64,000 bases of DNA from Timema cristinae (taxonomy: Eukaryota > Arthropoda > Insecta > Phasmatodea > Timematidae): NCBI GenBank assembly GCA_039000515.1, contig JBCFYV010000012.1, positions 121,728,605 to 121,792,604 on the forward strand, written 5' to 3'. Shown in pieces: positions 2,577 to 61,258 of the stretch. Numbering within the stretch: the first letter of the stretch is position 1; each line of letters starts with the position of its first letter. A program made the translations under genes and the position numbers. The notes under the pieces were generated by a model. It was given only the letters and a program-made list of their open reading frames with translations. It had not been told where the DNA came from and made no database searches.

Positions 2577-5500
2577 TTCACTTTCTTTCCACCACTACTC
2601 CTCTATCTTTCCACCATACTCCTCTTTCTTTCCACCACTACTCCTCTATCTTTCCACCACTACTCCTATCTTCACCACTATTCTTTCCACCACTACTCCT
2701 CTATCTTTCCACACACTCCTCTATCTTCCCCCATTATCCTCTTTCTTTCCACCACTACTCCTCTATTCTTTCCACCACTACTCCTCTTTCTTTCCACCAT
2801 TACTCCTCTATCTTTCCACCACTACTCCTCTTCTTTCCACCACTACTCCTCTATCTTTCCACCACTACTCCTCTATCTTTCCACCACTACTCCTCTATCT
2901 TTCCACCACTACTCCTCTATCTTTCCACCATACTCCTCTTTCTTTCCCCCACTACTCCTTATCTTTCCACCACTACTCTCTTATCTTTCCACCACTACTC
3001 CTCTATCTTTCCACCACTACTCCATCTTTCCACCACTACTCCTCTATCTTTCCACCACTATCTACTCCATGTCTATCTTTCCACCACTAACTCCTTTCTT
3101 TCCACCATTACTCCTCTTTCTTTCCACCACATCACTCCTATCTTTCACCATACTTTCTTACTTTCACATATCCACCACTCACCATCTTCCTTATCCTCAC
3201 CCATCACTCCTCTATCTTTCCACCACTACTCACTCTCTTCTTCCACCACTACTCCTCTTTCTTTCCACCACTACTCCTCTTTCAATATTCTAACTCTACT
3301 CCTCTTCTTTCCACTACCTATTTACATACTCTATTCTTATCCACCATATCCTCTATCTTTCCACACATTACTCCTCTTTCATCACCATACTCTCTTTCTT
3401 TCCACCATCTACTCCTCATCTTTCACCATACTCCTCTTTCTTTCCACCAACTCCTCTATCTTTCCACCACTACTCCTCTTCTTTCCACCACTACTCCTCT
3501 ATCTTTCCAACCCTACTCCTCTATCTTTCCACCACTACTCCTCTATCTTTCCACCACTACTCCTCTATCTTTCCACCATACTCCTCTTTCTTTCCACCAC
3601 TACTACCTCTATCTTCCACCACTACTCCTCTTCTTTCCACCACTACTCCTCTATCTTTCCACCACTACTCCTCTTTCATTCCACCACTACTCCTCTATCT
3701 TTCCACCACTACTCCTCTATCTTTCCACCATTACTCCTCTATCTTTCCACCACTACTCCTCTTTCTTTCCACCACTACTCCTCTATCTTTCCACCACTAC
3801 TCCTCTATCTTTCCACCACTACTCCTCTATCTTTCCACCACTACTCCTCTTCTTTCCACCATTACTCCTCTTTCTTTCCACCATACTCCTCTATCTTTCC
3901 ACCACTACTCCTCTTTCTTTCCACCACTACTCCTCTATCTTTCCACCACTACTCCTCTATCTTTCCACCATTACTACCTCTTCTTTCCACCATTACTCCT
4001 CTTTCTTTCCACCATACTCCTCTATCTTTCCACCATCACTCCTCTTTCTTTCCACCACTACTCCTCTATCTTTCACCATACTCCTCTATCTTTCCACCAT
4101 TACTCCTCTTCTTTCCACCATACTACTTCACTTATCTTTCTCACCATTACTCACTCCTACTTCTTTCCACAACCACTACCTTCCTCTTTCTTTCCACCAA
4201 CTACTCCTCTTTCTTTCCACCATTACTCCTCTATCTTTCCACCACTACTCCTTTTCTTTCCACCACTACTCCTCTTTCTTTCCACCATACTCCTCTATCT
4301 TTCCACCATTACTCCTCTTTCTTCCACCAATACTCCTCTTTCTTTCCACCATACTCCTCTATCTTTCCACCATACTCCTCTTTCTTTCCACCAAATACTC
4401 CCTTTCTTTCCACCAATACTCCTCTTTCTTTCCACCACTACTCCTCTACTTTCCACCATTACTCCTCTTTCTTTCCACCACTACTCCTCTATCTTTCCAC
4501 CACTACTCCTCTTTCTTTCCACCATACTTCCACTATCTTTCCACCACTACTCACTCTTCTTCCACCACTACTCCTCTTTCTTTCACCAACCATACTCCTC
4601 TTTCTTTCCACCAACTCCTCTATCTTTCCACCATTACTCCTTTCTTTCCACCATAACTCCTCTATTCTTTCCACAAATTTCTTCAACTCCTCTATCTTCC
4701 AACAATATCCTCTTTCTTTCCACCATTACTCCTCTTTTTCCACCATCACTCCTCTATCTTCCACCACTACCTCTTCTTTCCACATATCTACTTTCTTTCC
4801 ACCATTCCTCTTTTAACTAACTCCTTTCTTTCCACACTACTCACTCTTTCCACCATACAATCACTCCACATAACTCCTTCATACATATATACACTACTAT
4901 ACAACTATCCCCATAACCACCATCCTGTTTTCACCATACTCCCTTTCTTTCCCTACACTCTCTATCTTTCCACATTACTCTCTTCTTTCACACTACTCCA
5001 TCTTTCTTTTCACCATTATCCTCTTCCACATTATCTCTTTTTCCACACAATCCTCTACTTTCCACAATATCACTCTAATTTTCCACCACTACTCCTCTAC
5101 TTTCCACCACTATCCTCATCTTTACACACATATCTCTATCTTTCCACCATACTCCTCTATCTTTCACCATCTCTCTTATCTTTCCACATACTCTTTTTCC
5201 ACCATCTCCTACTCATACTCCATTTCCACCACTATCTACTCCTCATTCTCTTCCACCACTACTCCTCTATCTTTCCACATACTCTCTATCTTACTACTCC
5301 CTCATATTCTTCTCACCATACTCCTCTTTCTTCCACCATACTCCTCTTTCTTTCCACCAACACACTTCCATATCTTTTTCCACCACTACTCCCTTCTTTC
5401 CACCAATACTCCTCTTTCTTTCCACCACTACTCCTCTATCTTTCACCATACTCCTTATCTTTCCACCACTACTCTCTATCTTTCCACCATACTCCTCTAT

Positions 5501-8500
5501 CTTTCACCACTACTCCTCTTTCTTTCCACCACATTATTTTTCCCACATCTCTTCTTCACCACTACTCCTCTATCTTTCAACCACTACTCCTCTATTCTTT
5601 CCACCATACTCCTCTATCTTTCCACCATCTACTTCTTCCTATCTATCTTCCACCACTACTCCTCTTCTTTCCACCACTACTCCTCTATCTTCCACATACT
5701 CCTCTTCTTTCCACCATACTCCTCTTTCTTTCCACCATACTCCTCTTTCTTTCCACCATACTCTCTATCTTTCCACACTATCCTCTATCTTTCCACCATA
5801 TCCTCTATCTTCACCACTACTCCTCTTCTTTCCACCATACTCCTCTTCTTTCCACCACTACTCCTCTTTCTTTCCACTACTCCTCTTCTTTCCACCACTA
5901 CTCCTACTTTCTATCCACCACTACTCCTCTACTTTAAATTCCTTCTTCACATACTCCTCATCTTTCCACATTACTCCTCTATCTTTCCACCACTACTCCT
6001 CTTTCTTTCCACACTACTCCTCTTCTTTCCACCATACTCCTCTTCTTCACAATCTTTTCCACATTACTCCTCTATCTTTCCACCACTACTCCTCTACTTT
6101 CACATACTCCTCTATCTTTCCACCATACTCCTCTATCTTTCACATACTCCTCTTCTTTCCACCACTACTCCTCTATCTTTCCACCATTACTCCTCTTTCT
6201 TTCCACCACTACTCTCATCTTTCCACACACTCCTCTTTCTTTCCACCATTACTCCTCTATCTTTCCACCTACTCTCTATCTTTCACATTACTCCTTTCTT
6301 TCCACCACTCTACTTTCCACCATATCTTTCTCCACCATACTCCTCTTTCTTTCCACATACTCTCTTCTTTCCACTCTACTTTACATCCTCTTTCTTTCCA
6401 CCATACTCCTCTATCTTTCCACATACTCTCTTTTTTCCACCAACTCCTATCTTCCACATATCCTCTTCTTTCCACCACACTCCTCTATCTTTCCATACCT
6501 TTTAAACTTTCCTTTACTTTCCTTCTATTCCACCACATCCTCTATCTTTCCACACTATCCTTTCTTTCCACCATACTCCTCTATTTCCACTATCCTAATA
6601 TTCCATAATCCTTTTTTCACCTTATCCTTTTTCCTTACCTCTTTTCTTTCCCCTACTCTCTTTCACCAATCCATTTCCACATAACTCACTCACCACTCAA
6701 TTCACACACCAACTTTCTCACCATACCTTTACCCAACAAATTCTTCTTTCCACAACACTTCTGTTCAACACAATAACCAACTCCCAAACACCTAACTCAC
6801 ACAAAACACCAACACTTCACATACCTACAAACCATACAACCCACTCACAAACATTCACAACCCACTACCATACCCACTCCACAACCTCCACAAAACCCCA
6901 CCTACTCATCTCACCACACTCTCCAACCCACACACATCTCCCCATACTCCACAACCCACTACAATCCCATTTAATACCCTCCCAAATTCCCTCATCAACA
7001 AATCTCTTATTAATACTTTTCCTCTTATTTTCCACCAATACTCCCTTTCTTCCACCATATCCTCTTCTTTCCACATACTCCTATCTTCACCATTACTCCT
7101 CTTCTTCCCATACTCCTCTTCTTTCACATACTCCTCTCTTTCCACCATACTCCTCTTTCTTTCCACCTACTCCTTATCTTTCCACCTACTCCTCATCTTT
7201 CCACATACTCCCTTTCTTTCCACCAACTCCTCTTTCTTTCCACCACCCACTCCTCTTATCTTCCACCACTACTCCTATTTCCACCCTCTTCATCTTTCCA
7301 CCATACTCTCTTCTTTCACCATACTCCTCTTTCTTTCCACCATTACTCTCTTTCTTTCCACTACTCCTCTATCTTTCACCATTACTCCTCTTTCTTTCCA
7401 CCAATACTCTTTCTTTCACCACCTCCTCTTCTTTCACAACTCTATCTTTCACCTATCTTATCTTTCCACCATTACTCTCTTATCTTCCCACACTCCTCTT
7501 CTTTCCACCATACTCCTCTTTCTTTCCACCACTACTCCTCTATCTTTCACCCCATACTACTCTCTTCTTTCCACCATACTCCTCTATCTTTCCACCACTA
7601 CTCCTCTATCTTTCACCATACTCTCTTTCTTTCCACATACTCCTCTTCTTCCAACATAATCTCTCTATCTTCCACATTACCCCACTTTCCCACTCCCTTT
7701 CTTTCCACCACTATCCTCTATTCTTTCCACCACTACTCCTCTTCTTTCCAACTTCTTCCACACTATCCTCTTCTTTCCATCCATACTCCTTTTCTTTCCA
7801 CACTACTCCTCTATCTTTCCACCATACTCCTCTTCTTTCCACCATACTCTCTTCTTTCACCCTACTCCTCTTCTTTCCCTTTTCTTTCTTTCCACCATTA
7901 CTCCTCTTCTTTCCACCACACTCCTCTTTCTTTCCACCATATCCTCTATCTTCACCACTACTCTTTCTTTCCACCACTACTCCTCTTCTTTCCTCATATC
8001 TATCTTTCCACCATTACTCCTCTTTCTTTCCACCACTACTCCTCTATCTTTCCACCACTACTCCTCTTTCTTTCCACCACTACTCCTCTATCTTTCCACC
8101 ACTACTCCCTCTTTCTTTCCACCATACTCCTCTATCTTTCCACCATACTCCTCTTTCTTTCCACCACTACTCCTCTATCTTTCCACCACTACTCCTCTTC
8201 TTTCCACCATACTCCTCTATCTTTCCACACTACTCCTCTATCTTCCACATACTCCTCTTCTTTCCACCACTACTCCTTATCTTTCCACCATACTCCTTTC
8301 TTCCACCATACTCCTCTCTTCCACCACTACTCCTCTTATCTTTCCACCATACTCCTCTATCTTTCACCATACTCTCTATCTTTCCACCATTACTCCTCTT
8401 TCTTTCACCATACTCCTCTTTCTTTCCACACTCTCTTTATCTTTCCACCATACTCCTCTATCTTTCCACCACTACTCCTTATCTTTCCACCATACTCCTC

Positions 8501-8595
8501 TCTTCCACCATACTCCTTTATCTTTCCACCATACCCTCTATCTTTCCACCACTACTCCTTTATCTTTCACCATTACTCCTCTTTCTTTCCACCAT
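2577..8595. repeat. 6-kb array of a 22-bp pyrimidine-rich minisatellite
   Basis: Unit CTCCTCTATCTTTCCACCAC plus TA (22 bp), with CTTTC/CTATC variants; roughly 270 copies. The plus strand is almost free of G. Units are regular at 2.6-4.6 kb and 7.9-8.6 kb but very ragged at about 4.7-7.7 kb, with many one-base losses and near-random stretches around 6600-7000. That pattern fits unresolved consensus errors in a long-read assembly or an older decayed core. Open frames across it are artefacts. Confidence 0.95.
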
Positions 8596-14435: not shown

Positions 14436-15200
14436 TCATTAGGAATTATATAAATAAGTCCAAGCTGGAGTTAGTTATGTGAGATGGAAAACGTTATTTT
14501 AAATCTTTCCGTCAAATATTTTCCGTTTTGGAAACACAAACCTATATTGTTCCCGGTCAAAATCGAGTATTGATATTTTTTATATATGTATTGATACTAT
14601 CAATAAAAAGTTACATCTGTAGACTACAAGACTTGACTTGTGAACTTATGAAGGTATGAAACTACTAGTGTTTCATCTTTTGCCTCGAAATATTGAGATC
14701 AGAATACACAAAGCTGCAATCCCACTGGATGTCCTTTACGGATGTGAAGTGTGGGCTCTCATTCTGAACCAAGATAATAGATAGATGGTTAGTTATCGAG
14801 GTTAAAATGTTGAGAAAGATATTTGTGGCTAAGAGGGATGGACATGCAGGAGAATGGATAAAGCTACATAGGTAAGAACGTCATGACTTGTATGCACCCC
14901 CAAATTTAATAAGTTTAATCAAGACGGGCAGGCGCGTATGGATGACGACAGGCGTGTACACAACATTTTAGTTGTAAAGACTGAAGATACCAGATCCTTT
15001 GTTAGGTCAAGATTTTAATGGGAGGTTAGTGTTAGAATGTATTTGGAAGAGGTTTTTATCTCAGGATAGGGATTGAATGGCGAGCTAACGTTATGGCTGC
15101 CATGAACTTTAGAGTCTTCAAGGTCAGAATTAGTTCTAGTCTACTAAAGATAGCAGCTGTTATATACTGCACTTCCTTACATGTTCCTATAGTAAACTAC
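14436..15200. other. intron J-K sequence
   Basis: Short intron between exons K and J. The stretch near 14690-14830 (GGATGTCCTTTACGGATGTG, CTGAACCAAG, TGTTGAGAAAGATATTTGTGG) reads like decayed LINE-type coding but cannot be assigned with confidence. Confidence 0.4.
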
Positions 15201-15283
15201 AGTTGTACCATCATTGCTCATGATTACAATATCCTTATGTATAAACAGCAGTTGTACCAACATTGCTTAGTATGACAATATCG
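15201..15283 (-). repeat. two-copy duplication of exon J end and donor
   Basis: Plus-strand 15201-15233 and 15250-15283 are imperfect copies (AGTTGTACCATCATTGCTC against AGTTGTACCAACATTGCTT) about 49 bp apart. The right copy includes the last 22 bases of exon J and its donor; the left copy carries the same exonic bases with a few changes, downstream in the intron. It is a small version of the exon-edge arrays elsewhere in the gene. Confidence 0.75.
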
Positions 15284-15445
15284 TCTGCTTCCTGAACAAA
15301 CTGCAGTTGATGGGTGACAAGTATCCGAGTCTTCTTCTTAAGAAAGGACTTGATGCACTCCTCAAACAGTTGACTAGCGACATGTGTGTCCACGGCGGAC
15401 AGGGGGTCGTCCAGCAGATACATGTCGGCCTCTTTGTAAATAGCT
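15262..15445 (-). CDS. ABCC4-like transporter exon J (NBD1 Walker B, D-loop, H-loop)
   Basis: Acceptor GTTTGATCCAG, donor GTTGGT (non-standard but in phase). It reads AIYKEADMYLLDDPLSAVDT, with Walker B (MYLLDD) and D-loop (SAVD), then HVASQLFEECIKSFLKKKTR and ILVTHQLQFV, where His is the switch (H-loop) residue. It ends ADDIVILSN, which joins G-E-I-Q of exon K. 184 bp, phase 2 in and phase 0 out. NBD1 here has the Glu-less 'LDDP' form typical of ABCC NBD1, the low-hydrolysis site. The donor region is duplicated 49 bp downstream in the intron. Confidence 0.95.
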
Positions 15446-17890: not shown

Positions 17891-18193
17891 AGTGTAATTA
17901 TTTATTTAATTTTTCAATATTGTCTGAATATATATTATTAAAATAAAGAATTTGTCCGTCATGATCATGCAAAGGTCTAGCTGACATTTAAAAAAAATAC
18001 AGTGAGAAAAGGTGTAAGTCTCATCTTGTCTGGGTTTTTCCTCAATTGGAGTGGTCAGAATCCCAATTCCGACTGAGTGTTCTGAATTTTTTTTTTATAT
18101 TATTTCACTCTTCCTCCATGCAAATACCATTAAACTTACCATAAGTTCCTCCTTCCTCGTCTCTATCCCACTAGTATAAAAGTGAGGGTTAAC

Positions 18194-18475
18194 CTGGCCA
18201 AGTTTAACCCTCGCTTTGCTCCAGACATAGCTATTCCCCTCTCCCCGACAAGGTGAGGTCCCCAAGAGGGAACTGCTCCAAGTCGGGCCGCAGGGCGCAC
18301 ACCCTCAACACCTCGTCGTACCGACCCTGGTCGAAGGGCGACCCGAACACGATGTTCTGTCTCACGGTGGAACCAAACACCCAGGGGTCTTGGCAGGCGT
18401 AGGATAGCGTCCCCTTCAACTGTCGGTCCCCTGGGTTGGTTGTAGCTCCCCAAGGATCACTTGCAGCAGGGAACT
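18194..18475 (-). CDS. ABCC4-like transporter exon I (NBD1 Q-loop and signature region, frameshifted)
   Basis: Acceptor ATTCCCCCAG, donor GTTAAC. It begins SSLLQVILGELQPTQGT, completing Walker A. It continues in a second frame with QLKGTLSYACQDPWVFGS (Q-loop at SYACQDPWVFG) and VRQNIVFGSPFDQGRYDEV. It ends in a third frame with LVGERGIAMSGAKRGLNLAR. One base appears to be missing near 18420-18433 and one near 18251-18256; adding both gives the phase 2 exit needed for exon J. The ABC signature, normally LSGGQ(K), reads MSGAK, so it is shortened and altered. It is a confident NBD1 exon but is broken as sequenced. Confidence 0.9.
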
Positions 18476-18960
18476 CTGGGGGAATGATATTCATTACTTG
18501 AGGAGGACCATTGTCTGCCTTTCACTGACGTCTTTCGAGGGAGAGGGGAAGGAAGCTGTGATGTGTTTAGTGTCCATGTTGTACACACATGGTAATGTGA
18601 GGAGGTCACATGATGGGCGAATAGAGCACTCAGCAGCCAAGCCAGAGGTCGTCTTGACACTTATCTACCGGTTGAACTCAACATGCTCCAACCAAGCGTT
18701 CTAGGGATCGATCTTGGCCATCATCTCGTCACGCAGATATCTGATGGGAACCCCCTTTTGATCATCCAATGATCACAATGTTCCGGGACACCAGTCATTT
18801 GATGTTTTACTACACATATAAAGGGAAAATTAAACTTGGAACGGATGTGTCCATAGTTTGGTGGACGTAATTCAATTAATATGTGTGAGAATATTAACTC
18901 GCGATATGGAGCTGAGCTATAAATCATATGCTGTGTGCAGAAATAAGCGCTATATAGTTG

Positions 18961-19150
18961 TGTATCTGATGACCAGCTCGTAATATGGAGCTGAGCTATA
19001 ATTCAAAAGTTGAAGCAGAAATAAGCGCTAGACAGTTGTGTATCTGATGACTGCCTCGCAATATGGAGCTAAGCTATAATTCAGATGCTGGTGCAGATTT
19101 AAGGCCAGGACAGGTGTGTATCTGATGACCAGCTTGCAATATGACCCGAG
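18961..19150. repeat. about 75-bp degenerate tandem repeat
   Basis: Three to four diverged copies of a unit containing TGTGTATCTGATGACCAGCT, CGTAATATGGAGCTGAGCTA and TAATTCAAATGC-type sequence between about 18895 and 19150, in intron H-I. Confidence 0.7.
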
Positions 19151-19829
19151 TTCCAAATAAGATGCTGATTTAGTGTAGCAAAGTTGGCAAATGCTGCTGT
19201 GTAATATACACAAAAGAAAAAATACATAAATAAACGAATGCAAATCTAATGCGAGCATGCCTTATTATTGAGGTGGACATATTTCTATTTATACACCCTC
19301 CTATATTATGTGTGTGGTGTGGTGTGTGGTAAAAACATTAATGAGCACTATTAAGTAAATGTCGATCTCATTGTTTTTAGGGTACCGAATGAACGAACGG
19401 GTGGATTTACTTTTTCCGGGTGATTAAAGTCACTAGCATAACTTCTTTCAGATGTAAGTAAAGCTGTCAATCCCATATCAATTGTGACAAAACGAACAAA
19501 AAACCTTGAAAAGTATGTAAAATACACTTCCCGACAAAATTGATAGGCTCTTTCTCATTCGCTCACATAGAAATTCAACGGGGAAAAAAACATAGCACCG
19601 ATTCACAGCTTCCTTAGATTGGGGATATGCTTTATTTATCCCAGATAGGGTGGGTGACACTAGCCAGTTGAAAGGCTGAGTGCACGTGCTTATAAGGATG
19701 GATGAGGAAGCACATCAAACCAAATTTAGAATGTCAAACCCCTTCTCAAAAAAGTGTTTTTAAATTGTATAATTTTCACTGGATGATTGCTTTGACCTTG
19801 ATACCCCCCTCCCCAGACAAGTCACCTAC

Positions 19830-20034
19830 CTTGCCAGACCCCACACTCCCGGTGATCACTGTTAGGGCCCCCTTTTTGGCCTCGAGATCAATGTTCTTCA
19901 AAGTGTGGTTTGAGGATGAAGAGTCCCACTTGGCCGTCACGCCGCGTAGAGTCAGTTGGGGCCCCGAGGGGTACATCTGATTCAGGTTGCTCAGGTTGCT
20001 CAGGTTGAGGCAATTCTTTCAGTATCAGCACATC
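19830..20034 (-). CDS. ABCC4-like transporter exon H (linker and NBD1 Walker A)
   Basis: Acceptor CTAACCAATCCCAG, donor GTAGGT. The first part reads DVLILKELPQPEQPEQPE, which joins exon G's RIQ as 'RIQ-xxLLxEE'. The second part reads MYPSGPQLTLRGVTAKWD, then TLKNIDLEAKKGALTVITGS and VGSGK. The last is the start of Walker A (G-S-V-G-S-G-K), completed by SS in exon I. The two parts are in different frames: the exon has 205 bp where 204 would keep phase 0 on both sides, so one extra base lies around 19975-20005, next to a three-fold CAACCTGAG repeat. Either an assembly slip or a real frameshift. Confidence 0.88.
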
Positions 20035-20040
20035 CTGGGA

Positions 20041-20292
20041 TTGGTTAGAAACAAACAAGTTGTTAAGGAGGACATGCATATCTAGACGTGACATGATTAG
20101 ACTACTAAAACAAACAAGTTGTTAAGGAGGACATGCATATCTAGACGTGACAGGATTAGACTACTAAAACAAAACAAGTTGTTAAGGAGGACAATGCATA
20201 TCTAGACGTGACAGGATTAGACTACTAAAACAAACAAGTTGTTAAGGAGGACATGCATATCTAGACGTGACAGGATTAGACTACTAAAACAA
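20041..20292 (-). repeat. about 60-bp tandem repeat (4-5 copies) just upstream of exon H acceptor
   Basis: Four full copies and a partial one of a 59-61 bp unit. On the gene strand each contains CTTAACAACTTGTTTGTTTT followed by AG, which resembles the polypyrimidine stretch directly in front of the real exon H acceptor (TTGTTTGTTTCTAACCAATC, then CCAG). The units are nearly identical, so the expansion looks recent. It is intronic but copies the acceptor-side signals. Confidence 0.9.
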
Positions 20293-20454
20293 ACACATTA
20301 TTAGACCCCTTCCTATGTTCACCCGATTTGAGCACTGTATTAATTGAACTAACCAAAATATCACTAAACTATTTCGACCTTTAGATTTTAAATGTAATAA
20401 TAATTATATTATTATTTAAATACCTATCTTATTATAAGAACATTTAGATTGTTA

Positions 20455-21461: not shown

Positions 21462-21572
21462 CTGTATTCTATTTAAAGAAACTCTGGCTTCTGCTGAAAC
21501 ACTAATCGCCATCCCAAACTGGGTCACGAAATTAGTCCCAAATAGCTGTAGCAGAGCTGTGCAGGTGAATAT
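21462..21572 (-). CDS. ABCC4-like transporter exon G (TMD1, TM6)
   Basis: Proximal acceptor TTTCTGTTTCAG, donor GTAGCC, 111 bp, phase 0 in and out. It reads IFTCTALLQLFGTNFVTQFG, then MAISVSAEARVSLNRIQ. The family equivalent is 'VFxAxALxxxxRxxxxxFFPxAIxxxSExxVSxxRIQ', the end of TM6 and the start of the linker to NBD1. About ten more copies of its acceptor and first codons lie upstream and in frame, so acceptor choice could lengthen TM6 by 18-residue steps. Confidence 0.92.
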
Positions 21573-22176
21573 CTGAAACAGAAACAAGACAAGGTGATGT
21601 TGTAATAGAGCTGTGCAGGTGAATACTGAAACAGAAACAAGACAAGGTGAGATTGTCCTAGAGCTGTGCAGGTGAATACCTGAAACAGAAACAAGACAAG
21701 GTGATGTTGTCCTAGAGCTGTGCAGGTGAGTACCTGAAACAGAAACAAGGCAAGGTGATATTGTCCTAAAACTGTGCAGGTGAATACCTATAAAACAGAA
21801 CAAGACAAGGTGAGATTGTCCTAGAGCTGTGCAGGTGAATACCTGAAACAGTAACAAGACAAGGTGAGAGTGTCCTAGAGCTGTGCAGGTGAATACCTGA
21901 AACAGAAACAAGACAAGGTGAGATTGTCCTAGAGCTGTGCAGGTGAATACCTGAAACAGAACAAGACAAGGTGAGATTGTCCTAGAGCTGTGCGAAAGTG
22001 AATATCTGAAACAGGAAAAAAGACAAGGTAATATTGTCCTAGAGTTGGTCAGGGTGATACCTGAAACAGAAACAGACAAGGTGAGATTGTCCTAGAGCTG
22101 TGCAGGTGAATACCTGAAACAGAACAGACAGGTGAGATTGTCCTAGAGCTGTGCAGGTGAATACCTGAAACAGAAC
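21554..22176 (-). repeat. 54-bp tandem array of exon G acceptor and first codons
   Basis: About 11 copies of a 54-bp unit. On the gene strand each holds a polypyrimidine tract plus acceptor (TTGTCTTGTTTCTGTTTCAG) followed by exon G-type sequence (GTATTCACCTGCACAGCTC). The unit is a multiple of three and has no stop in the exon G frame. The frame therefore stays open upstream from the exon to about 22079, coding an 18-residue module VFTCTALGQSHLVLFLFQ repeatedly. Occasional indels break the frame further upstream. Confidence 0.95.
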
Positions 22177-22315
22177 AATAATGATTGAAGACCAGGCCTT
22201 ATTATCATCGTGTCTGAAATGATCGAGTCAGTGACCACAATGGATGAATCATTTAAAAGAGAAGCGTCATTAAGTGACTAAGGAGGTTGAGTTTAGGGGG
22301 TTACTCTAAATCTAC

Positions 22316-24530
22316 TTTGGGTAGTGTAACGTCACTATCAACTACTTTATCTATTGTGACATCAATATAACGCTATCTTGCTAATGTGACATCACTTAAC
22401 CCTACCTTAACTACTGTGACTTCACTCTAACCTTACCTTGACTACTGTGACTTCACTCTAACGTTACCTTGGCGCTGTGACTTCACTCTAACGTTACCTT
22501 GACTATTGTGACTTCACTCTAACGTTACCTTGGCCGCTGTGACTTCACTCTAACGTTACCTTGACTGCTGTGACTTCACTCTAACGTTACCTTGGCGCTG
22601 TGACTTCACACTAACGTTACCTTGACTGCTGTGACTTCACACTAACGTTACCTTGACTACTGTGACTTCACTCTAACGTTACCTTGACTACTGTGACTTC
22701 ACTCTAACCTTACCTTGACTGCTGTGACTTCACTCTAACCTTACCTTGACTACTGTGACTTCACTCTAACCTTACCTTGACTACTGTGACTTCACTCTAA
22801 CGTTACCTTGGCGGCTGTGACGTCACTCTAACATTACCTTGACTACTGTGACGTCACTCTAACGTTACCTTGACTACTGTTACTTCACTCTAACATTACC
22901 TTGACTACTGTGACGTCACTCTAACGTGCCTTGACTACTGTGACTTCACTCTAACCTTACCTTGACTGCTGTGACTTCACTCTAACGTTACCTTGGCGGC
23001 TGTGACGTCACTCTAACATTACCTTGACTACTGTGACGTCACTCTAACGTTACCTTGACTACTGTTACTTCACTCTAACATTACCTTGACTACTGTGACG
23101 TCACTCTAACGTGCCTTGACTACTGTGACTTCACTCTAACCTTACCTTGACTGCTGTGACTTCACTCTAACGTTACCTTGGCCGCTGTGACTTCACTCTA
23201 ACGTTACCTTGGCCGCTGTGACTTCACTCTAACGTTACCTTGACTGCTGTGACTTCACTCTAACGTTACCTTGGCGGCTGTGACTTCACTCTAACGTTAC
23301 CTTGGCCGCTGTGACTTCACTCTAACGTTACCTTGACTGCTGTGACTTCACTCTAACGTTACCTTGACTATTGTGACTTCACTCTAACGTTACCTTGGCC
23401 GCTGTGACTTCACACTAACGTTACCTTGACTGCTGTGACTTCACTCTAACGTTACCTTGACTGCTGTGACTTCACTCTAACGTTACCTTGGCCGCTGTGA
23501 CTTCACTCTAACGTTACCTTGACTGCTGTGACTTCACTCTAACGTTACCTTGACTATTGTGACTTCACTCTAACGTTACCTTGGCCGCTGTGACTTCACA
23601 CTAACGTTACCTTGACTACTGTGACTTCACTCTAACGTTACCTTGACTGCTGTGACTTCACTCTAACCTTACCTTGACTACTGTGACTTCACTCTAACGT
23701 TACCTTGACTGCTGTGACTTCACTCTAACGTTACCTTGGCTGCTGTGACTTCACTCTAACCTTACCTTGACTACTGTGACTTCACTCTAACGTTACCTTG
23801 ACTGCTGTGACTTCACTCTAACCTTACCTTGACTACTGTGACTTCACTCTAACGTTACCTTGACTGCTGTGACTTCACTCTAACGTTACCTTGACTGCTG
23901 TGACTTCACTCTAACCTTACCTTGACTACTGTGACTTCACTCTAACGTTACCTTGACTGCTGTGACTTCACTCTAACCTTACCTTGACTGCTGTGACTTC
24001 ACTCTAACCTTACCTTGACTACTGTGACTTCACTCTAACGTTACCTTGACTACTGTGACTTCACTCTAACGTTACCTTGGCTGCTGTGACATCACTGTAA
24101 CGTTACCTTGGCGGCTTTGACGTCACTCTAACATTACCTTGACTACTGTGACTTCACTCTAACGTTACCTTGACTACTGTGACTTCACTCTAACGTTACC
24201 TTGACTACTGTTACTTCACTCTAACGTTACCTTGGCTGCTGTGACTTCACTATAACGTTACCTTATCGGCTGTGACGTCACTCTAACGTTACCTTGACTA
24301 CTGTGACGTCACTCTAACCTTACCTTGACTACTGTGACTTCACTCTAACGTTACTTTGACTACTGTGACTTCACTCTAACCTTACCTTGACTACTGTGAC
24401 TTCACTCTAACGTTACTTTGACTACTGTGACTTCACTCTAACGTTACCTTGACTACTGTGACTTCACTCTAACGTTACCTTGACTGCTGTGACTTCACTC
24501 TAACGTACCTTGGCCGCTGTGACGTCAACC
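22316..24530 (-). repeat. 31-bp tandem array of exon F end plus splice donor
   Basis: About 70 copies of a 31-bp unit. On the gene strand each is TGAAGTCACAGCGGCCAAG (exonic type) followed by GTAACGTTAGAG (intronic type). Many units carry GTAAGG, a better donor than the GTACGT of the exon itself. Several higher-order blocks repeat (for example near 22800-22960 and 22990-23140), so the array has grown partly by multi-unit duplication. The array abuts exon F and overlaps its last bases. Confidence 0.95.
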
Positions 24531-24647
24531 CTAAGTATCAGCATTGCGATCAAGGTGTAGAATATGGCCGTACGAAGAGCCAGTATGAGACTCGCACCAA
24601 CCAGAGACCTGACGTAGCTCGTGTTGAGTATAGCTCTTATTTCCGAC
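24509..24647 (-). CDS. ABCC4-like transporter exon F (TMD1, TM5)
   Basis: Acceptor ATGTTTGTTGAAG and proximal donor GTACGT. The exon reads SEIRAILNTSYVRSLVGAS, then LILALRTAIFYTLIAMLIL (TM5), and ends RVDVTAAK. The family pattern is 'xExxxIxxSSYxRGxNxAxFF...TxYVLxGxxxTAxxVF'. The 139 bp give phase 2 in and phase 0 out, matching exon G, whose first residues complete the 'TA-x-VF' motif. The last 19 bases plus the following 12 intron bases are the unit of the adjoining 31-bp array, so this exon end is followed by about 70 near-copies of its own donor. Confidence 0.9.
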
Positions 24648-32951: not shown

Positions 32952-33009
32952 CTGGAACACAGAGGAGACAGGGTTTTCATAGACAGAGGGAACAAGGTCA
33001 GGAGAGACT

Positions 33010-36000
33010 GAGCAGCGGCCAGTGATAGACTTACCTTCCTGTAGATGAGCGAGCCGCAGCCAGTGATAGACTTACCTTCCTGTAGATGAGCGAGCAGCAG
33101 CCAGTGATAGACTTACCTTCCTGTAGATGAGCGAGCTGCAGCCAGTGATAGACTTACCTTCCTGTAGAGGAGCGAGCAGCGGCCAGTGATAGACTTACCT
33201 TCCTGTAGATGAGCGAGCAGCGGCCTGTGATAGACTTATCTTCCTGTAGAAGAGCGAGCAGCAACCAGCGATAGACTTACCTGCCTGTAGAGGAGCGAGC
33301 AGCGGCCAGTGATAGACTTACCTTCCTGTAGATGAGCGAGCAGCAGTCAGTGATAGACTTACCTTCCTGTAGAGGAGCGAGCAGCGGCCAGTGATAGACT
33401 TACCTTCCTGTAGATGAGCGAGCTGCAGTCAGTGATAGACTTACCTGCCTGTAGAGGAGCGAGCAGCGGCCAGTGATAGACTTACCTTCCTGTAGATGAG
33501 CGAGCAGCAGTCAGTGATAGACTTACCTTCCTGTAGAGGAGTGAGCAGCGGCCAGTGATAGACCTACCTTCCTGTAGAGGAGCGAGCAGCGGCCAGTGAT
33601 AGACTTACCTTCCTGTAGATGAGCGAGCAGCAACCAGTGATAGACTCACCTTCCTGTAGATGAGCGAGCAGTGGCCAGTGATAGACTCACCTTCCTGTAG
33701 ATGAGCGAGCTGCAGCCAGTGATAGACTTACCTTCCTGTAGATGAGCGAGCAGCGGCCTGTGATAGACTCACCTTCCTGTAGATGAGCGAGCAATGGCCA
33801 GTGATAGACTCACCTTCCTGTAGATGAGCGAGCTGCAGCCAGTGATAGACTTACCTTCCTGTAGATGAGCGAGCAGCAACCAGTGATAGACTCACCTTCC
33901 TGTAGATGAGCGAGCAGTGGCCAGTGATAGACTCACCTTCCTGTAGATGAGCGAGCTGCAGCCAGTGATAGACTTACCTTCCTGTAGATGAGCGAGCAGC
34001 GGCCTGTGATAGACTCACCTTCCTGTAGATGAGCGAGCAGTGGCCAGTGATAGACTCACCTTCCTGTAGATGAGCGAGCTGCAGCCAGTGATAGACTTAC
34101 CTTCCTGTAGAGGAGCAAGCAGCGGCCTGTGATAGACTTACCTTCCTGTAGATGAGCGAGCAGCGGCCTGTGATAGACTTATCTTCCTGTAGAGGAGCGA
34201 GCAGCAACCAGCGATAGACTTACCTTCCTGTAGATGAGCGAGCAGCAGCCAGTGATAGACTTACCTTCCTGTAGATGAGCGAGCAGCGGCCAGTGATAGA
34301 CTCACCTTCCTGTAGATGAGCGAGCAGTGGCCAGTGATAGACTCACCTTCCTGTAGATGAGCGAGCTGCAGCCAGTGATAGACTTACCTTCCTGTAGATG
34401 AGCGAGCAGTGGCCAGTGATAGACTCACCTTCCTGTAGATGAGCGAGCAGCGGCCTGTGATAGACTTACCTTCCTGTAGATGAGCGAGCAGCGGCCAGTG
34501 ATAGACTCACCTTCCTGTAGATGAGCGAGCAGTGGCCAGTGATAGACTCACCTTCCTGTAGATGAGCGAGCAGCGGCCAGTGATAGACTTACCTTCCTGT
34601 AGATGAGCGAGCAGCGGCCTGTGATAGACTTACCTTCCTGTAGATGAGCGAGCAGCAGCCAGTGATAGACTTACCTTCCTGTAGATGAGCGAGCAGCGGC
34701 CAGTGATAGACTTACCTTCCTGTAGAGGAGCGAGCAGTGGCCAGCGATAGACTTACCTTCCTGTAGATGAGCGAGCTGCAGCCAGTGATAGACTTACCTT
34801 CCTGTAGATGAGCGAGCAGCAACCAGTGATAGACTCACCTTCCTGTAGATGAGCGAGCAGTGGCCAGTGATAGACTCACCTTCCTGTAGATGAGCGAGCT
34901 GCAGCCAGTGATAGACTTACCTTCCTGTAGATGAGCGAGCAGCGGCCTGTGATAGACTCACCTTCCTGTAGATGAGCGAGCAGTGGCCAGTGATAGACTC
35001 ACCTTCCTGTAGATGAGCGAGCTGCAGCCAGTGATAGACTTACCTTCCTGTAGATGAGCGAGCAGTGGCCAGTGATAGACTTATCTTCCTGTAGATGAGC
35101 GAGCAGCAGTCAGTGATAGACTTACCTTCCTGTAGAGGAGCGAGCAGTGGCCAGTGATAGACTTACCTTCCTGTAGATGAGCGAGCAGTGGCCAGTGATA
35201 GACTCACCTTCCTGTAGATGAGCGAGCAGCGGCCTGTGATAGACTTACCTTCCTGTAGATGAGCGAGCAGTGGCCAGTGATAGACTCACCTTCCTGTAGA
35301 TGAGCGAGCAGTGGCCAGTGATAGACTCACCTTCCTGTAGATGATCGAGCAGCGGCCAGTGATAGACTTACCTTCCTGTAGATGAGCGAGCAGCGGCCAG
35401 TGATAGACTTACCTTCCTGTAGAGGAGTGAGCAGCGGCCAGTGATAGACTTATCTTCCTGTAGAGGAGTGAGCAGCGGCCAGTGATAGACTTACCTTCCT
35501 GTAGAGGAGCGAGCAGCGGCCAGTGATAGACTTACCTTCCTGTAGATGAGCGAGCAGCGGCCAGTGATAGACTCACCTTCCTGTAGATGAGCGAGCTGCA
35601 GCCAGTGATAGACTTACCTTCCTGTAGATGAGCGAGCAGCGGCCAGTGATAGACTCACCTTCCTGTAGATGAGCGAGCAGCGGCCAGTGATAGACTCACC
35701 TTCCTGTAGATGAGCGAGCAGCGGCCAGTGATAGACTCACCTTCCTGTAGATGAGCGAGCAGTGGCCAGTGATAGACTCACCTTCCTGTAGAGGAGCGAG
35801 CAGCGGCCAGTGATAGACTTACCTTCCTGTAGATGAGCGAGCTGCAGCCAGTGATAGACTCACCTTCCTGTAGATGAGCGAGCAGCGGCCAGTGATAGAC
35901 TCACCTTCCTGTAGAGGAGCGAGCAGCGGCCAGTGATAGACTTACCTTCCTGTAGATGAGCGAGCAGCGGCCAGTGATAGACTCACCTTCCTGTAGATGA

Positions 36001-36108
36001 GCGAGCAGTGGCCAGTGATAGACTCACCTTCCTGTAGAGGAGCGAGCAGCGGCCAGTGATAGACTTACCTTCCTGTAGATGAGCGAGCAGCAGCAGTGAT
36101 AGACTTAC
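33010..36108 (-). repeat. 41-bp tandem array of exon C end plus splice donor
   Basis: About 75 head-to-tail copies of a 41-bp unit. Read on the gene strand, each copy is 23 nt of exon C end (finishing ATCTACAGGAAG) followed by 18 nt of intron start (GTAAGTCTATCACTGGCC). Variants carry GTGAGT or GTAAGA at the donor and Leu/Gln-type differences in the exonic part. The array fills the intron between exons C and D except for about 60 bp next to the exon D acceptor. Almost every unit keeps a good 5' splice-site consensus. Confidence 0.95.
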
Positions 36109-36313
36109 CTTCCTGTAGATGAGTGAGCAGCAACCAGTCTTCACCCTTAGCGCCACATGAGAAGCGTTCTGCATGTAATGAGCATTGAGGAGACTTGTCA
36201 ACGCCGTGTTGGCCACCAGCACGCCTGCGTACAAATAGGCATCGTCCCTGAGGTGCGCGTGGTTGGGATGGAAGCACCTGAGGAGTTGGCCCAGTAGCAG
36301 GGGCTGCGCCAGT
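36109..36313 (-). CDS. ABCC4-like transporter exon C (TMD1, TM1-TM2)
   Basis: Acceptor GGTCCTCCAG and first donor GTAAGT. The 205-bp exon reads LAQPLLLGQLLRCFHP, then AYLYAGVLVANTALTSLLNA (TM2), and ends ALRVKTGCCSLIYRK. These match the family landmarks 'xxPLLLGxLIxYF' and 'G[MA]xLRVAxCxxIYRK'. Length gives phase 2 in and phase 0 out, as needed for exons B and D. The donor is the first of about 75 near-identical donors, because the last 23 exon bases plus 18 intron bases form the 41-bp unit of the adjoining array. Using a later donor would add 41 bp per unit and keep frame only for multiples of three units. Confidence 0.93.
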
Positions 36314-37969: not shown

Positions 37970-38104
37970 CTTAATATGACATTACAGAACAAATTGATGA
38001 AACCCAAATATATTAATTCCCAAGCAAAGGTTTTAAAGAGAGTTCTTGACAATTTTGGAGCTCGACCAGCCTTTATTGCATTCTTATATTCCTTGCTCCA
38101 AGCT
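37970..38104 (-). CDS. ABCC4-like transporter exon B (start of TMD1, TM1)
   Basis: Acceptor TTTTGTTACAG, donor GTGAGA. The exon reads AWSKEYKNAIKAGRAPKLSR followed by TLFKTFAWELIYLG and FINLFCNVIL. This parallels the family 'FWxKE...KPSLxxAIxKxFWxxYLxLG' region that leads into the first membrane helix. The hydrophobic stretch LIYLGFINLFCNVIL is TM1. The exon starts by completing the Lys codon split from exon A and ends in phase 2 (AG), which exon C completes to Arg. The reading frame is intact throughout. Phase agreement on both sides makes this assignment strong. Confidence 0.9.
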
Positions 38105-39839: not shown

Positions 39840-40992
39840 CCTCACTTTAATACGAACTAGGACCTCACTTACAATTACCTAACTAGCACACTCTCACTTA
39901 CAATTCCTAACTAGCACATCTCACTTAAAATTACTAACTACGAATCTCACTTACAATTCCTAACTGCAACTCTCACTTTACAATTACCTAACTAGCGACA
40001 CTCTCACTTACAATTACCTAACTAGCGACACTCTCACTTACAATTACTAACTAGCGACACTCTCACTTACAATTACCTAACTAGCGACATCTACTTTCAT
40101 TTACAATTACCTAACTAGCGACACTCTCACCTTACAATTACCTAACTAGCGACACTCTCACTTTACAATTAACTAACTAGCGACACTCTCACTTACAATT
40201 ACCTAACTAGCGTACACTCTCACTTACAATTACCTAACTAGCGACACTCTCACTTACAATTACCTAACTAGCGACACTCTCACCTTACAATTACCTAACT
40301 AGCTACACTCTCACCTTACAATTACCTAACTAGCGACACTCTCATTTACCAATTTACTAGTAACTACGACACTCTCACTTTTACATTACTAACTACGACA
40401 CTCTCACTTTTACAATTAACTAACTAGCGACACTTCACCTTACAATACTAACATACGAACTCTCACTTTACAATTACCTGAACTATACAATCTCACTTTA
40501 CATTGCCTGGAACTAGTACATTCTCATTACAATATTGAATAACTAAATTCATTTAATTGCTGAAAGTGCTACTTCATTTATAATTACCTAACTAGCGACA
40601 CTCTCACTTTACAATTACCTAACTAGCGACACTCTCACCTTACAATTACCTAACTAGCTACACTCTCACATTACAATTACCTAACTAGCGACACTCTCAC
40701 CTTACAATTACCTAACTAGCTACACTCTCACATTACAATTACCTAACTAGCGACACTCTCACCTTACAATTACCTAACTAGCTACATTCTCACATTACAA
40801 TTACCTAACTAGCGACACTCTCACCTTACAATTACCTAACTAGCTACACTCTCACATTACAATTACCTAACTAGCTACACTCTCACATTACAATTACCTA
40901 ACTAGCGACACTCTCACCTTACAATTACCTAACTAGCTACACTCTCACATTACAATTACCTAACTAGCTACACTCTCACATTACAATTACCA
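39840..40992. repeat. 30-bp minisatellite upstream of exon A
   Basis: About 38 copies of ACCTAACTAGCGACACTCTC plus ACTTACAATT. On the gene strand each regular unit holds AATTGTAAGTGAGAG, a donor-like GTAAGT. Units at 40350-40560 are ragged; the right half shows a two-unit alternation (GCGACACTCTCACCTTACA and GCTACACTCTCACATTACA). Confidence 0.95.
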
Positions 40993-44413: not shown

Positions 44414-47400
44414 AAGGTATACACCAGACACTCAGTCTAGCACACAGACAAGGTATACACCAGACACTCAGTCTAGCACACAGACAAGGTATACACCAGA
44501 CACTCAGTCTAGCACACAGACAAGGTATACACCAGACACTCAGTCTAGCACACAGACAAGGTATACACCAGACACTCAGTCTAGCACACAGACAAGGCAA
44601 GGTATACACCAGACACTCAGTCTAGCTCACAGACAAGGTATACACCAGACACTCAGTCTAGCACACAGACAAGGTAAGGTATACACCAGACACTCAGTCT
44701 AGTTCACAGACAAGGTATACACCAGACACTCAGTCTAGCACACAGACAAGGTATACACCAGACAGTCTAGCACACAGACAAGGCAAGGTATACACCAGAC
44801 ACTCAGTCTAGCACACAGACAAGGCAAGGTATACACCAGACACTCAGTCTAGCTCACAGACAAGGTATACACCAGACACTCAGTCTAGCACACAGACAAG
44901 GCAAGGTATACACCAGACAGTCTAGCACACAGACAAGGCAAGGTATACACCAGACACTCAGTCTAGCACACAGACAAGGTATACACCAGACACTCAGTCT
45001 AGAACACAGACAAGATATACACCAGACAGTCTAGAACACAGACAAGGCAAGGTATACACCAGACACTCAGTCTAGCACACAGACAAGGTATACACCAGAC
45101 AGTCTAGCACACAGACAAGGCAAGGTATACACCAGACACTCAGACTAGCTCACAGACAAGGTATACACCAGACACTCAGTCTAGCACACAGACAAGATAT
45201 ACACCAGACACTCAGTCTAGCACACAGACAAGGTATACACCAGACACTCATTCTAGCACACAGACAAGGCAAGGTATACACCAGACACTCAGTCTAGCAC
45301 ACAGACAAGGCAAGGTATACACCAGACACTCAGTCTAGCACACAGACAAGGCAAGGTATACACCAGACACTCAGTTTAGCACACAGACAAGGTATACACC
45401 AGACACTCAGTCTAGCACACAAACAAGGTATACACCAGACACTCAGTCTAGCACACAGACAAGGTAATGTATACACAAGACACTCAGTCTAGCACACAGA
45501 CAAGGTATACACCAGATACTCAGTCTAGCACACAGACAAGGCAAGGTATACACCAGACATTCAGTCTAGCACACAGACAAGGTATACACCAGATACTCAG
45601 TCTAGCACACAGACAAGGCAAGGTATACACCAGACACTCAGTCTAGCACACAGACAAGGCAAGGTGTACACCAGACACTCAGTCTAGCACACAGACAAGG
45701 CAAGGTATACACCAGACACTCAGTCTAGCACACAGACCAGGTATACACCAGATACTCAGTCTAGCACATAGACAAGGCAAGGTATACACCGGATACTCAG
45801 TCTAGCACACAGACAAGGTATATACCAGACACTCAGTCTAGCACACAGACAAGGTATATACCAGAAACTCAGTCTGGCACACAAACCAGGTATACACCAG
45901 ACACTCAGTCTAGCACACAGACAAGGTATACACCAGACAGTCTAGCACACAGACAAGGCAAGGTATACACCAGACACTTAGTCTAGCACACAGACATTGC
46001 AAGGTATACACCAGACACTCAGTCTAGCACACAGACAAGGTATATACCAGACACTCAGTCTAGCACACAGACAAGGTATATACCAGACACTCAGTCTGGC
46101 ACACAGACCAGGTATACACCAGACACTCAGTCTAGCACATAGACAAGGTATACACCAGACAGTCTAACTCACAGACAAGGTATATACCAGACACTCAGTC
46201 TAGCACACAGACCAGGTATACACCAGACACTCAGTCTAGCACACAGACCAGGTATACACCAGACACTCAGTCTAGCACACAGACCAGGTATACACCAGAC
46301 ACTCAGTCTAGCACACAGACCAGGTATACACCAGACACTCAGTCTAGCTCACAGACAAGGTATACACCAGACACTCAGTCTAGCTCACAGACAAGGTATA
46401 CACCAGACACTCAGTCTAGCACACAGACAAGGCAAGGTATACACCAGACACTCAGTCTAGCTCACAGACCAGGTATACACCAGACACTCAGTCTAGCACA
46501 CTGACAAGGTATACACCAGACACTCAGTCTAGCACATAGACAAGGTATACACCAGACACTCAGTCTAGCACACAGATAAGGCAAGGTATACACCAGACAC
46601 TTAGTCTAGCACACAGACAAGGCAAGGTATACACTAGACATTCAGTCTAGCACACAGACCAGGTATACACCAGAACTCAGTCTAGCACACAGACAAGACA
46701 AGGTATACACCAGACACTCAGTCTAGCACACAGATAAGGCAAGGTATACACCATACACTCAGTCTAGCACACAGACAAGGCAAGGTATACACCAGACACT
46801 CAGTCTAGCACACATACAAGGTATATACCAGACACTCAGTCTAGCACACAGACCAGGTATACACCAGACACTCAGTCTAGCACACAGACAAAGGTATACA
46901 CCAGACACTCAGTCTAGCACACAGACCAGGTATACACCAGACACTCAGTCTAGCTCACAGACAAGGTATACACCAGACATCCAGTCTAGCTCACAGACAA
47001 GGTATACACCAGACACTCAGTCTAGCACACAGACAAGGCAAGGTATACACCAGACACTCAATCTAGCTCACAGACCAGGTATACACCAGACACTCTGTCT
47101 AGCATACAGACAAGCCAAGGTATACACCAGACACTCAGTCTAGCACACAGACATGGCAAGGTATACACCAGACACTCAGTCTAGCACACAGACAAGGTAT
47201 ACACCAGACACTCAGTCTAGCACACAGATAAGGCAAGGTATACACCAGACACTTAGTCTAGCACACAGACAAGGCAAGGTATACACTAGACATTCAGTCT
47301 AGCACACAGACCAGGTATACACCAGATACTCAGTCTAGCACACAGACAAGACAAGGTATACACCAGACACTCAGTCTAGCACACAGACCAGGTATACACC

Positions 47401-48945
47401 AGACACTCAGTCTAGCACACAGACAAGGTATATACCAGACACTCAGTCTAGCACACAGACCAGGTGTACACCAGACACTCAGTCTAGCACACAGACCAGG
47501 TATACACCAGACACTCAGTCTAGCACACAGACAAGGTATACACCAGACAGTCTAACTCACAGACAAGGTATATACCAGACACTCAGTCTATCACACAGAC
47601 CAGGTATACACCAGACACTCAGTCTAGCACACAGATAAGGCAAGGTATACACCATACACATCAGTCTAGCACACAGACAAGGCAAGGTATACACCAGACA
47701 CTCAGTATAGCACACAGACCAGGTATACACCAGACACTCAGTCTAGCACACAGACCAGGTGTACACCAGACACTCAGTCTAGCACACAGACCAGGTATAC
47801 ACCAGACACTCAGTCTAGCACACAGACAAGGTATATACCAGACACTCAGTCTAGCACACAGACCAGGTATACACCAGACACTCAGTCTAGCACACAGACA
47901 AGGTATACACCAGACACTCAGTCTAGCTCACAAACAAGGTATACACCAGACACTCAGTCTAGCTCACAGACAAGGTATACACCAGACACTCAGTCTAGCA
48001 CACAGACAAGGCAAGGTATACACTAGACATTCAGTCTAGCACACAGACCAGGTATACACCAGATACTCAGTCTAGCACACAGACAAGACAAGGTATACAC
48101 CAGACACTCAGTCTAGCACACAGACCAGGTATACACCAGACACTCAGTCTAGCACACAGACAAGGTATACACCAGACACTCAGTCTAGCACACAGACCAG
48201 GTATACACCAGACACTCAGTCTAGCACACAGACAAGGTATATACCAGACACTCAGTCTAGCACACAGACCAGGTATACACCAGACACTCAGTCTAGCACA
48301 CAGATAAGGCAAGGTATACACCATACACTCAGTCTAGCACACAGACAAGGCAAGGTATACACCAGACACTCAGTCTAGCACACAGACCAGGTATACACCA
48401 GACACTCAGTCTAGCACACAGACAAGGTATATACCAGACACTCAGTCTAGCACACAGACCAGGTGTACACCAGACACTCAGTCTAGCACACAGACCAGGT
48501 ATACACCAGACACTCAGTCTAGCACACAGACAAGGTATACACCAGACAGTCTAACTCACAGACAAGGTATATACCAGACACTCAGCTCTATCACACAGAC
48601 CAGGTATACACCAGACACTCAGTCTAGCACACAGACCAGGTATACACCAGACACTCAGTCTAGCACACAGACCAGGTATACACCAGACACTCAGTCTAGC
48701 ACACAGACAAGGTATACACCAGACACTCAGTCTAGCTCACAAACAAGGTATACATCAGACACTCAGTCTAGCTCACAGACAAGGTATACACCAGACACTC
48801 AGTCTAGCACACAGACAAGGCAAGGTATACACCAGACACTCAGTCTAGGTCACAGACCAGGTATACACCAGACACTCAGTCTAGCACACAGACAAGGCAA
48901 GGTATACACCAGACACTCAGTATAGCTCACAGACAATGTAAACAA
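44414..48945. repeat. 4.5-kb array of a 36-bp minisatellite with 41-bp variants
   Basis: Unit GGTATACACCAGACACTCAG plus TCTAGCACACAGACAA (36 bp). Variants carry an extra GGCAA (41 bp) or lose CACTCAG. Roughly 115-120 copies, with higher-order blocks repeated between 46.2-48.9 kb. Because 36 is a multiple of three, frames stay open, but the peptide is a repeat artefact. Each unit carries ACAAG/GTATAC, a weak donor-like motif on the plus strand. Confidence 0.96.
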
Positions 48946-60714: not shown

Positions 60715-61258
60715 CTGTCTACTCAGTATATTAGAGCCATCTTATCTACTCAGTATATGAGAGCCATCTTGTATAACCAGTATATTAGAGCCATTTGTCT
60801 ACTCAGTATATTAGAGCCATCTTGTCTACTCAGTATATTAGAGCCATCCTGTCTACTCAGTATATGAGAGCCATCTTGTCTAACCAGTATATTAGAGCCA
60901 TCTTGTGTACTCAGTATATTAGAGCCATCCTGTCTACTCAGTATATGAGAGCCATCTTGTCTAACCAGTATATTAGAGCCATCTTGTCTACTCAGTATAT
61001 TAGAGCCATCTTGTCTACTCAGTATATTAGAGCCATCCTGTCTACTCAGTATATGAGAGCCATCTTGTCTAACCAGTATATTAGAGACATCTTGTCTACT
61101 CAGTATATTAGAGCCATCTTGTGTACTCAGTATATTAGATCCATCATGTCTACTCAGTATATTAGAGCCATCCTGTCTACTCAGTATATGAGAGCCATCT
61201 TGTCTAACCAGTATATTAGAGCCATCTTGTGTACTAAGTATATTAGAGCCATCCTGTG
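60715..61258. repeat. 30-bp minisatellite, about 18 copies
   Basis: Unit TCTACTCAGTATATTAGAGC plus CATCTTG-type sequence, about 30 bp, with CTAACCAG and GTGTACTCAG variants in an ordered pattern. Open on both strands because 30 is a multiple of three; not called as a gene. Confidence 0.95.

Follow-up and report, generated by a model that had tools for sequence, protein, structure and literature searches.

Introns of an ABCC4-like gene in Timema cristinae made largely of tandem copies of their own splice junctions

Two successive introns of an ABCC4-like gene in the phasmatodean insect Timema cristinae consist almost entirely of tandem copies of their own exon-intron junctions. The gene lies on the minus strand of a 64,000-nt stretch of contig JBCFYV010000012.1 (positions 121,728,605 to 121,792,604 of the forward strand, assembly GCA_039000515.1), which we call the window and whose coordinates are used throughout; the contig measures 130 Mb and the assembly 1.29 Gb. 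The intron between exons F and G carries a donor-type array at its upstream end and an acceptor-type array at its downstream end, and intron E, the next one upstream, is occupied by a donor-type array of its own (table 1). We propose, with a probability of roughly 0.7, that these arrays are junction-spanning minisatellites that would have arisen by local duplication over a splice junction, expanded, and been tolerated through splicing at the outermost sites.

The original prediction placed the F/G intron at 24508 to 21573 on the minus strand, limits that we recover, and described about 70 donor-type copies of 31 bp and about 11 acceptor-type copies of 54 bp. Both figures hold. Tandem Repeats Finder (TRF) gives 70.3 and 11.6 copies, and our own counts, each including the genuine site, are 70 donor copies (70 of 75 period segments match the consensus in 24 or more of 31 letters; the other five, edge or degenerate segments, were excluded) and 12 acceptor copies (12 of 15 segments, with at least 40 of 54 consensus letters). 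That the units derive from the two junctions of the intron itself, as had been claimed, is borne out by 36-bp windows laid on those junctions, which find copies at 30/36 and 35/36 letters, compared with 24/36 for the best of 100 shuffled windows. Every repeat had also been held to keep its GT or AG, and this is true of all 12 acceptor copies (11 aligned, and one at an alignment gap but reading CAG) and nearly, not strictly, true of the donors: GT is kept in 67 of 70, two copies lacking the T through loss of one base and one reading AT. With 70 and 12 copies, the transcript is predicted to contain several dozen donor-like sites and about twelve that resemble acceptors, as anticipated. The genuine donor, which reads GTACGT and scores 9.4, is stronger than most of the copies: the commonest, GTAACG (46/70), scores 7.2 in a donor matrix with a maximum of 12.9. 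A G at position +5 is present in 15 of the 69 non-genuine copies. The acceptor array is open over much of its length in the frame of exon G, and its unit length is a multiple of three.

The pattern is larger than was originally held, as other genes are affected and intron E is a purer case of a junction-copy array than the F/G intron. Among the 76 copies counted in intron E (of 82 segments, six being excluded), 72 have GT (GTAAGT in 42, GTGAGT in 29 and GTAGGT in one) and four read ATAAGT; the 72 all score at least 10. The length of the intron equals 83 + 75 x 41 - 1 = 3157 nt, and the 83-nt core alone looks like an ordinary short intron and is likely the ancestral intron E. Donor E is flanked by an 8-bp direct repeat, GCTGCTCA, of which the exon holds one copy and the intron the other, exactly 41 bp apart; ACTGG stands 2 bases ahead of the repeat. 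A repeat at this spacing is the footprint expected of a microhomology-bounded duplication that captured donor E.

Table 1. Features of the ABCC4-like gene discussed in the text (window coordinates)
Feature	Position	Strand	Remarks
Exon E	36109..36313	-	Ends ..CCSLIYRK; start approximate
Donor-type array, 41-bp unit (exon E end + donor)	33010..36138	-	76 copies including genuine junction
Intron E	32952..36108	-	3157 nt, 98% array; next upstream of F/G
Core of intron E, last donor copy to acceptor	32952..33034	-	83 nt; likely ancestral intron
Exon F	24509..24647	-	Final ~20 bases form the exonic portion of the 31-bp unit
Donor-type array, 31-bp unit (exon end + donor)	22355..24527	-	70 copies including genuine junction; TRF 31 bp x 70.3
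Intron F/G	21573..24508	-	2936 nt, 94% array; first donor base 24508, last intron base 21573
Stretch separating the two TRF arrays	22176..22354	-	Degenerate donor copies at upstream end
Acceptor-type array, 54-bp unit (acceptor + exon G start)	21553..22175	-	12 copies including genuine junction; TRF 54 bp x 11.6
Exon G	21462..21572	-	
Two-copy 49-bp duplication across donor at ~15261	15187..15284	-	Second copy without GT

The host gene is ABCC4-like (MRP4-like) along both its membrane and its nucleotide-binding halves, with tblastn matches in each that together reach from position 38100 to a point some 23.6 kb past the low end of the window; the best PDB matches of the first membrane part are vertebrate ABCC4 structures (E 1e-28). 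The closest protein in the database search comes from Timema monikensis (77% identity over 48% of the query), and nine of ten exons compared with that protein are 97-100% identical to it, the tenth having no match. At exactly the two joints in question, the T. monikensis protein, a gene model, has 29 and 36 extra residues that match translated array units, and the 36-residue insert is a pair of acceptor units of 18 residues each, with 86% identity to two neighboring units of T. cristinae. The presence of array peptides at the same joints in a second species indicates that the arrays are not private to this assembly. Among the retrieved proteins that span them, 170/172 are gap-free at joint E and 124/132 at joint G; the remainder have gaps of 1 to 7, save one each of 29 and 36, which are the lengths of the T. 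monikensis inserts. Since most relatives are gap-free, the usual protein is uninterrupted here, and splicing of the outermost sites would, to judge from the sequence, yield this expected collinear product. Among 53 proteins, with identities of at most 45%, no shorter protein of the same gene from another Timema was recognised.

Under the explanation that we favor, a short tandem duplication bounded by chance direct repeats would first have taken in an exon-intron border, and the repeat at intron E is a fitting footprint of such an event. Slippage or unequal exchange would then have expanded the copies locally to tens, and the arrays would have persisted because the first donor and the last acceptor, which are the outermost copies, can still make normal mRNA. 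If so, each added unit merely lengthens the intron, from about 83 to 3157 nt in the case of intron E. The outermost copies of both site types are indeed intact in the ABCC introns. A general bent for tandem duplication would suffice as the source, given the great abundance of minisatellites here: over 224 kb (loci L009-L017, the window, L018-L024), 39 distinct tandem arrays of at least 3 copies cover 45,315 of 224,000 bp (20%). Minority letters in the two GT columns number 4 and 0 of 76 in intron E (mean column 3.3) and 1 and 2 of 70 in the F/G intron (mean 4.2), so these columns are about as variable as the average and show no sign of selection either keeping or silencing the copies, as expected of neutral ones. 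In our view the arrays are for the most part neutral by-products, although some leaky splicing at inner copies may occur.

The same columns bear on the idea that the arrays are functional and that competing donors and acceptors tune splicing, the acceptors by giving in-frame isoforms in 54-nt steps and the frameshifting 31- and 41-nt donors by giving non-productive transcripts. We consider this unlikely: the GT columns are kept no better than others, most copies in the F/G intron are weaker than the genuine donor, and neither 31 nor 41 is divisible by three. Near-perfect donors in 72/76 copies of intron E nevertheless speak for it, as do a 54-bp unit that is divisible by three in an array much of which is open in the exon G frame, the two in-frame acceptor units of the T. 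monikensis model, and the use of inner units reported for the human gene IFI6 (PMC4526556).

Less probable still is that the arrays were inflated or misjoined during assembly, or that they drift freely in a pseudogene. The frame of the exons that encode the first nucleotide-binding domain (NBD1; window 18190-20034) is broken by small indels relative to T. monikensis, and some other arrays in the window are rich in indels, among them a 6-kb CT-rich array with a 22-bp unit at 2584-8594, which has 16% indels in TRF and may represent unpolished long reads. TRF gives 0% indels, in contrast, for the 31- and 41-bp arrays, T. monikensis has array peptides at the same joints, and the pattern recurs in myosin and homeobox genes. 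Base errors in the assembly are the likely source of the frame breaks in the NBD1 exons and in a homeobox exon (L022:3784-4104) whose frame is likewise broken by a small indel relative to its relatives. We also considered a dead ABCC gene as the source of the NBD1 breaks and rank assembly indels as likelier because a similar indel occurs in the homeobox exon, the T. monikensis model reads through, and arrays are found in myosin genes too.

The homeobox gene (locus L022; Pfam homeodomain E 6e-26) lies about 84 kb away. One of its introns, 1819 nt long, is duplicated at both borders, the acceptor border by a 65-bp unit x 3.1 and the donor border by a unit of about 85 bp in two copies. The joint between the two exons is read through in database relatives, whose named members include insects. 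For a sample not picked for arrays we used 20 of the 81 myosin-head matches, namely the top 19 and number 22 (numbers 20 and 21 contain several stops and were passed over), took the match ends as exon edges, ran a self-comparison on all 20 loci and read four by eye. Junction-spanning arrays stand at 2 of the 40 myosin exon edges: a donor array at L056, with a unit of about 38 bp that includes about 30 exon letters, and a 28-bp acceptor array at L067 that shares only 6 exon letters. Locus L056 also contains the tail of a 60-bp array, whose unit probably represents the end of the preceding myosin exon with its donor, to judge from known myosin sequence. Two further myosin loci, L060 and L069, were dropped as junction arrays, their arrays ending 14 and 10 nt before the acceptor (one L069 alignment reaches 5 nt). 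A 59-bp x 4.2 array at window 20049-20295 resembles these two in that 14 nt separate its end from the likely acceptor of an NBD1 exon.

That several introns of several genes are affected might suggest a mobile or introner-like element carrying splice sites between junctions, an explanation to which we give almost no weight, as every unit is built from the local exon edge and the 55 matches of the 31-bp unit in the 1.29-Gb assembly (at most 2 mismatches; 0 for the reversed control) all lie inside its own array. Introners, which are dispersed repeated sequences bearing splice sites, likewise repeat such sites, but their copies are scattered over many junctions, whereas the Timema units are local junction sequence.

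A survey of the ABCC4-like gene, which was a chosen gene, used 36-bp windows and scored a copy of at least 27/36 within 1.5 kb, the junction positions being approximate. Duplicated windows were found at 4/45 junctions compared with 0/22 mid-exon and 0/100 shuffled windows. Elsewhere, intronic windows were sampled at five distances, with 2 to 5 duplicated out of 22 or 23 each time, and random positions gave 96/400. Arrays at junctions of this gene number 3/14 against 0.65 expected (p 0.03), by which a preference is hinted at.

Several results weigh against our explanation. Junctions (4/45) and mid-exon windows (0/22) do not differ significantly (p 0.29), and duplication is rarer at junction windows than at random positions (4/45 vs 96/400, p 0.02). 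Genome-wide, three occurrences of AGGTAAGT at 15-45 bp spacing show no enrichment (303+566, or 869, vs 309+524, or 833, in the reversed control), which leaves a preference for junctions unproven. The one model of this gene seen from another species contains array peptides, which, if that model rests on RNA, is the opposite of outermost-only splicing. Use of the outermost sites is itself something that we infer from sequence, and the copy numbers come from a single assembly with small indels in some coding exons.

Five arrays from the motif test were run through TRF and the edge of one was inspected. By eye, some units are alike at distant places of one contig (C1, 1.23 and 5.03 Mb; 4.23 and 69.6 Mb); the motif matches thus include dispersed repeats, and their number is a poor proxy for junctions. 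In the 224 kb, a donor score of at least 8 is reached by 7/39 array consensus units, one of which is the acceptor array on the opposite strand; the 31-bp unit, at 7.2, falls outside the seven. With so few high scores, most local minisatellites hold no strong donor, and most minisatellites of this genome are unrelated to splice sites. No exon was recognised by eye at the edges of the arrays at 39864-40991, 44414-48944, 60716-61257 and 61493-66580. Arrays of one and the same 46-bp unit, again judged by eye, occur at window coordinates -11811 to -8044 and 127287 to 127612, separated by about 135 kb, so some local minisatellites belong to dispersed families.

Other observations concern the neighborhood. 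At L015:5760-6256 (window coordinates -24240 to -23744) there are seven copies of a 70-bp unit that is mini-exon-like on the minus strand, with CTCCATCTTACAG, about 31 nt and then GTAAGTAAGT, and each unit might carry an acceptor and a donor. A 56-bp unit present five times at L014:9341-9620 (window coordinates -30659 to -30380) has a strong donor, CAG|GTAAGG, after an ATG-led open stretch; this is possibly the first-exon donor of a neighboring plus-strand gene. Two long overlapping open frames of 349 and 245 codons lie in a GC-richer stretch of the window (49916-51588, plus strand).

A minisatellite of the human gene IFI6 (G1P3, 6-16) that supplies several splice donors was reportedly described by Turri, Cuin and Porter in 1995. 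There, two downstream repeat units act as donors and three mRNA species result, according to a later paper (PMC4526556). The original prediction, which knew of no named precedent, does not stand on this point: IFI6 is a precedent, the donor minisatellite is a kind already known, and the Timema arrays are a variant of that kind. In both, an array of short units lies over an exon-intron boundary, as in introns E and F/G, and donor-type sequence is kept, here with GT in 67/70 and 72/76 copies. As far as the sources consulted show, IFI6 concerns one human gene and donors only, whereas in Timema there are 70 and 76 copies in consecutive introns, acceptors form an array as well, and more genes are affected. 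Minisatellite-type repeats with a mean unit of 30 bp are also described as shifting exon/intron limits of human genes in segmental duplications (PMC2812944); those average 4 units and 160 bp and are discussed as a cause of novel introns, whereas in Timema an old intron would have grown from its own junctions. Tandem genomic duplication of AGGT as a source of intron gain (PMC3443670), with cases in Drosophila (PMC2891723), is similar in that it creates extra splice sites and the mRNA need not change. That duplication is exonic and makes a new intron, whereas here an existing one would be lengthened; the units straddle an existing junction and intron E retains its own 83-nt core and acceptor, which argues against gain of this type. 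In the titles and abstract openings of open-licence literature, we recognised no description of introns made almost wholly of copies of their own junctions, of arrays at both ends of an intron, or of recurrence across genes, and a search with a narrower phrase yielded no paper either.

How short introns can grow harmlessly and how a choice is made among near-identical splice sites are open questions, often studied with artificial constructs. The Timema arrays offer natural sets of competing sites, ranging in number from about a dozen to 76; these comprise donors, acceptors and, in one intron, both, and the expected protein of the gene is known. About 70 near-identical candidate cutting sites are presented where the splicing machinery normally meets one. 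Intron definition, which pairs the nearest sites, and exon definition, which takes the site closest to the exon, would give opposite products, and with sites spaced in steps of 31, 41 or 54 bp, transcript length would reveal which one was chosen. We tentatively extend our proposal, at somewhat less than even odds, to the view that a sizeable share of the long introns of Timema are self-grown by junction copying, that only such repeats can touch coding DNA and survive, and that the outermost site is routinely chosen. If this is true, Timema would constitute a natural setting for testing exon against intron definition, and leakage to inner copies would supply raw material for in-frame extensions of proteins, as the two 18-residue units of the T. 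monikensis model suggest.
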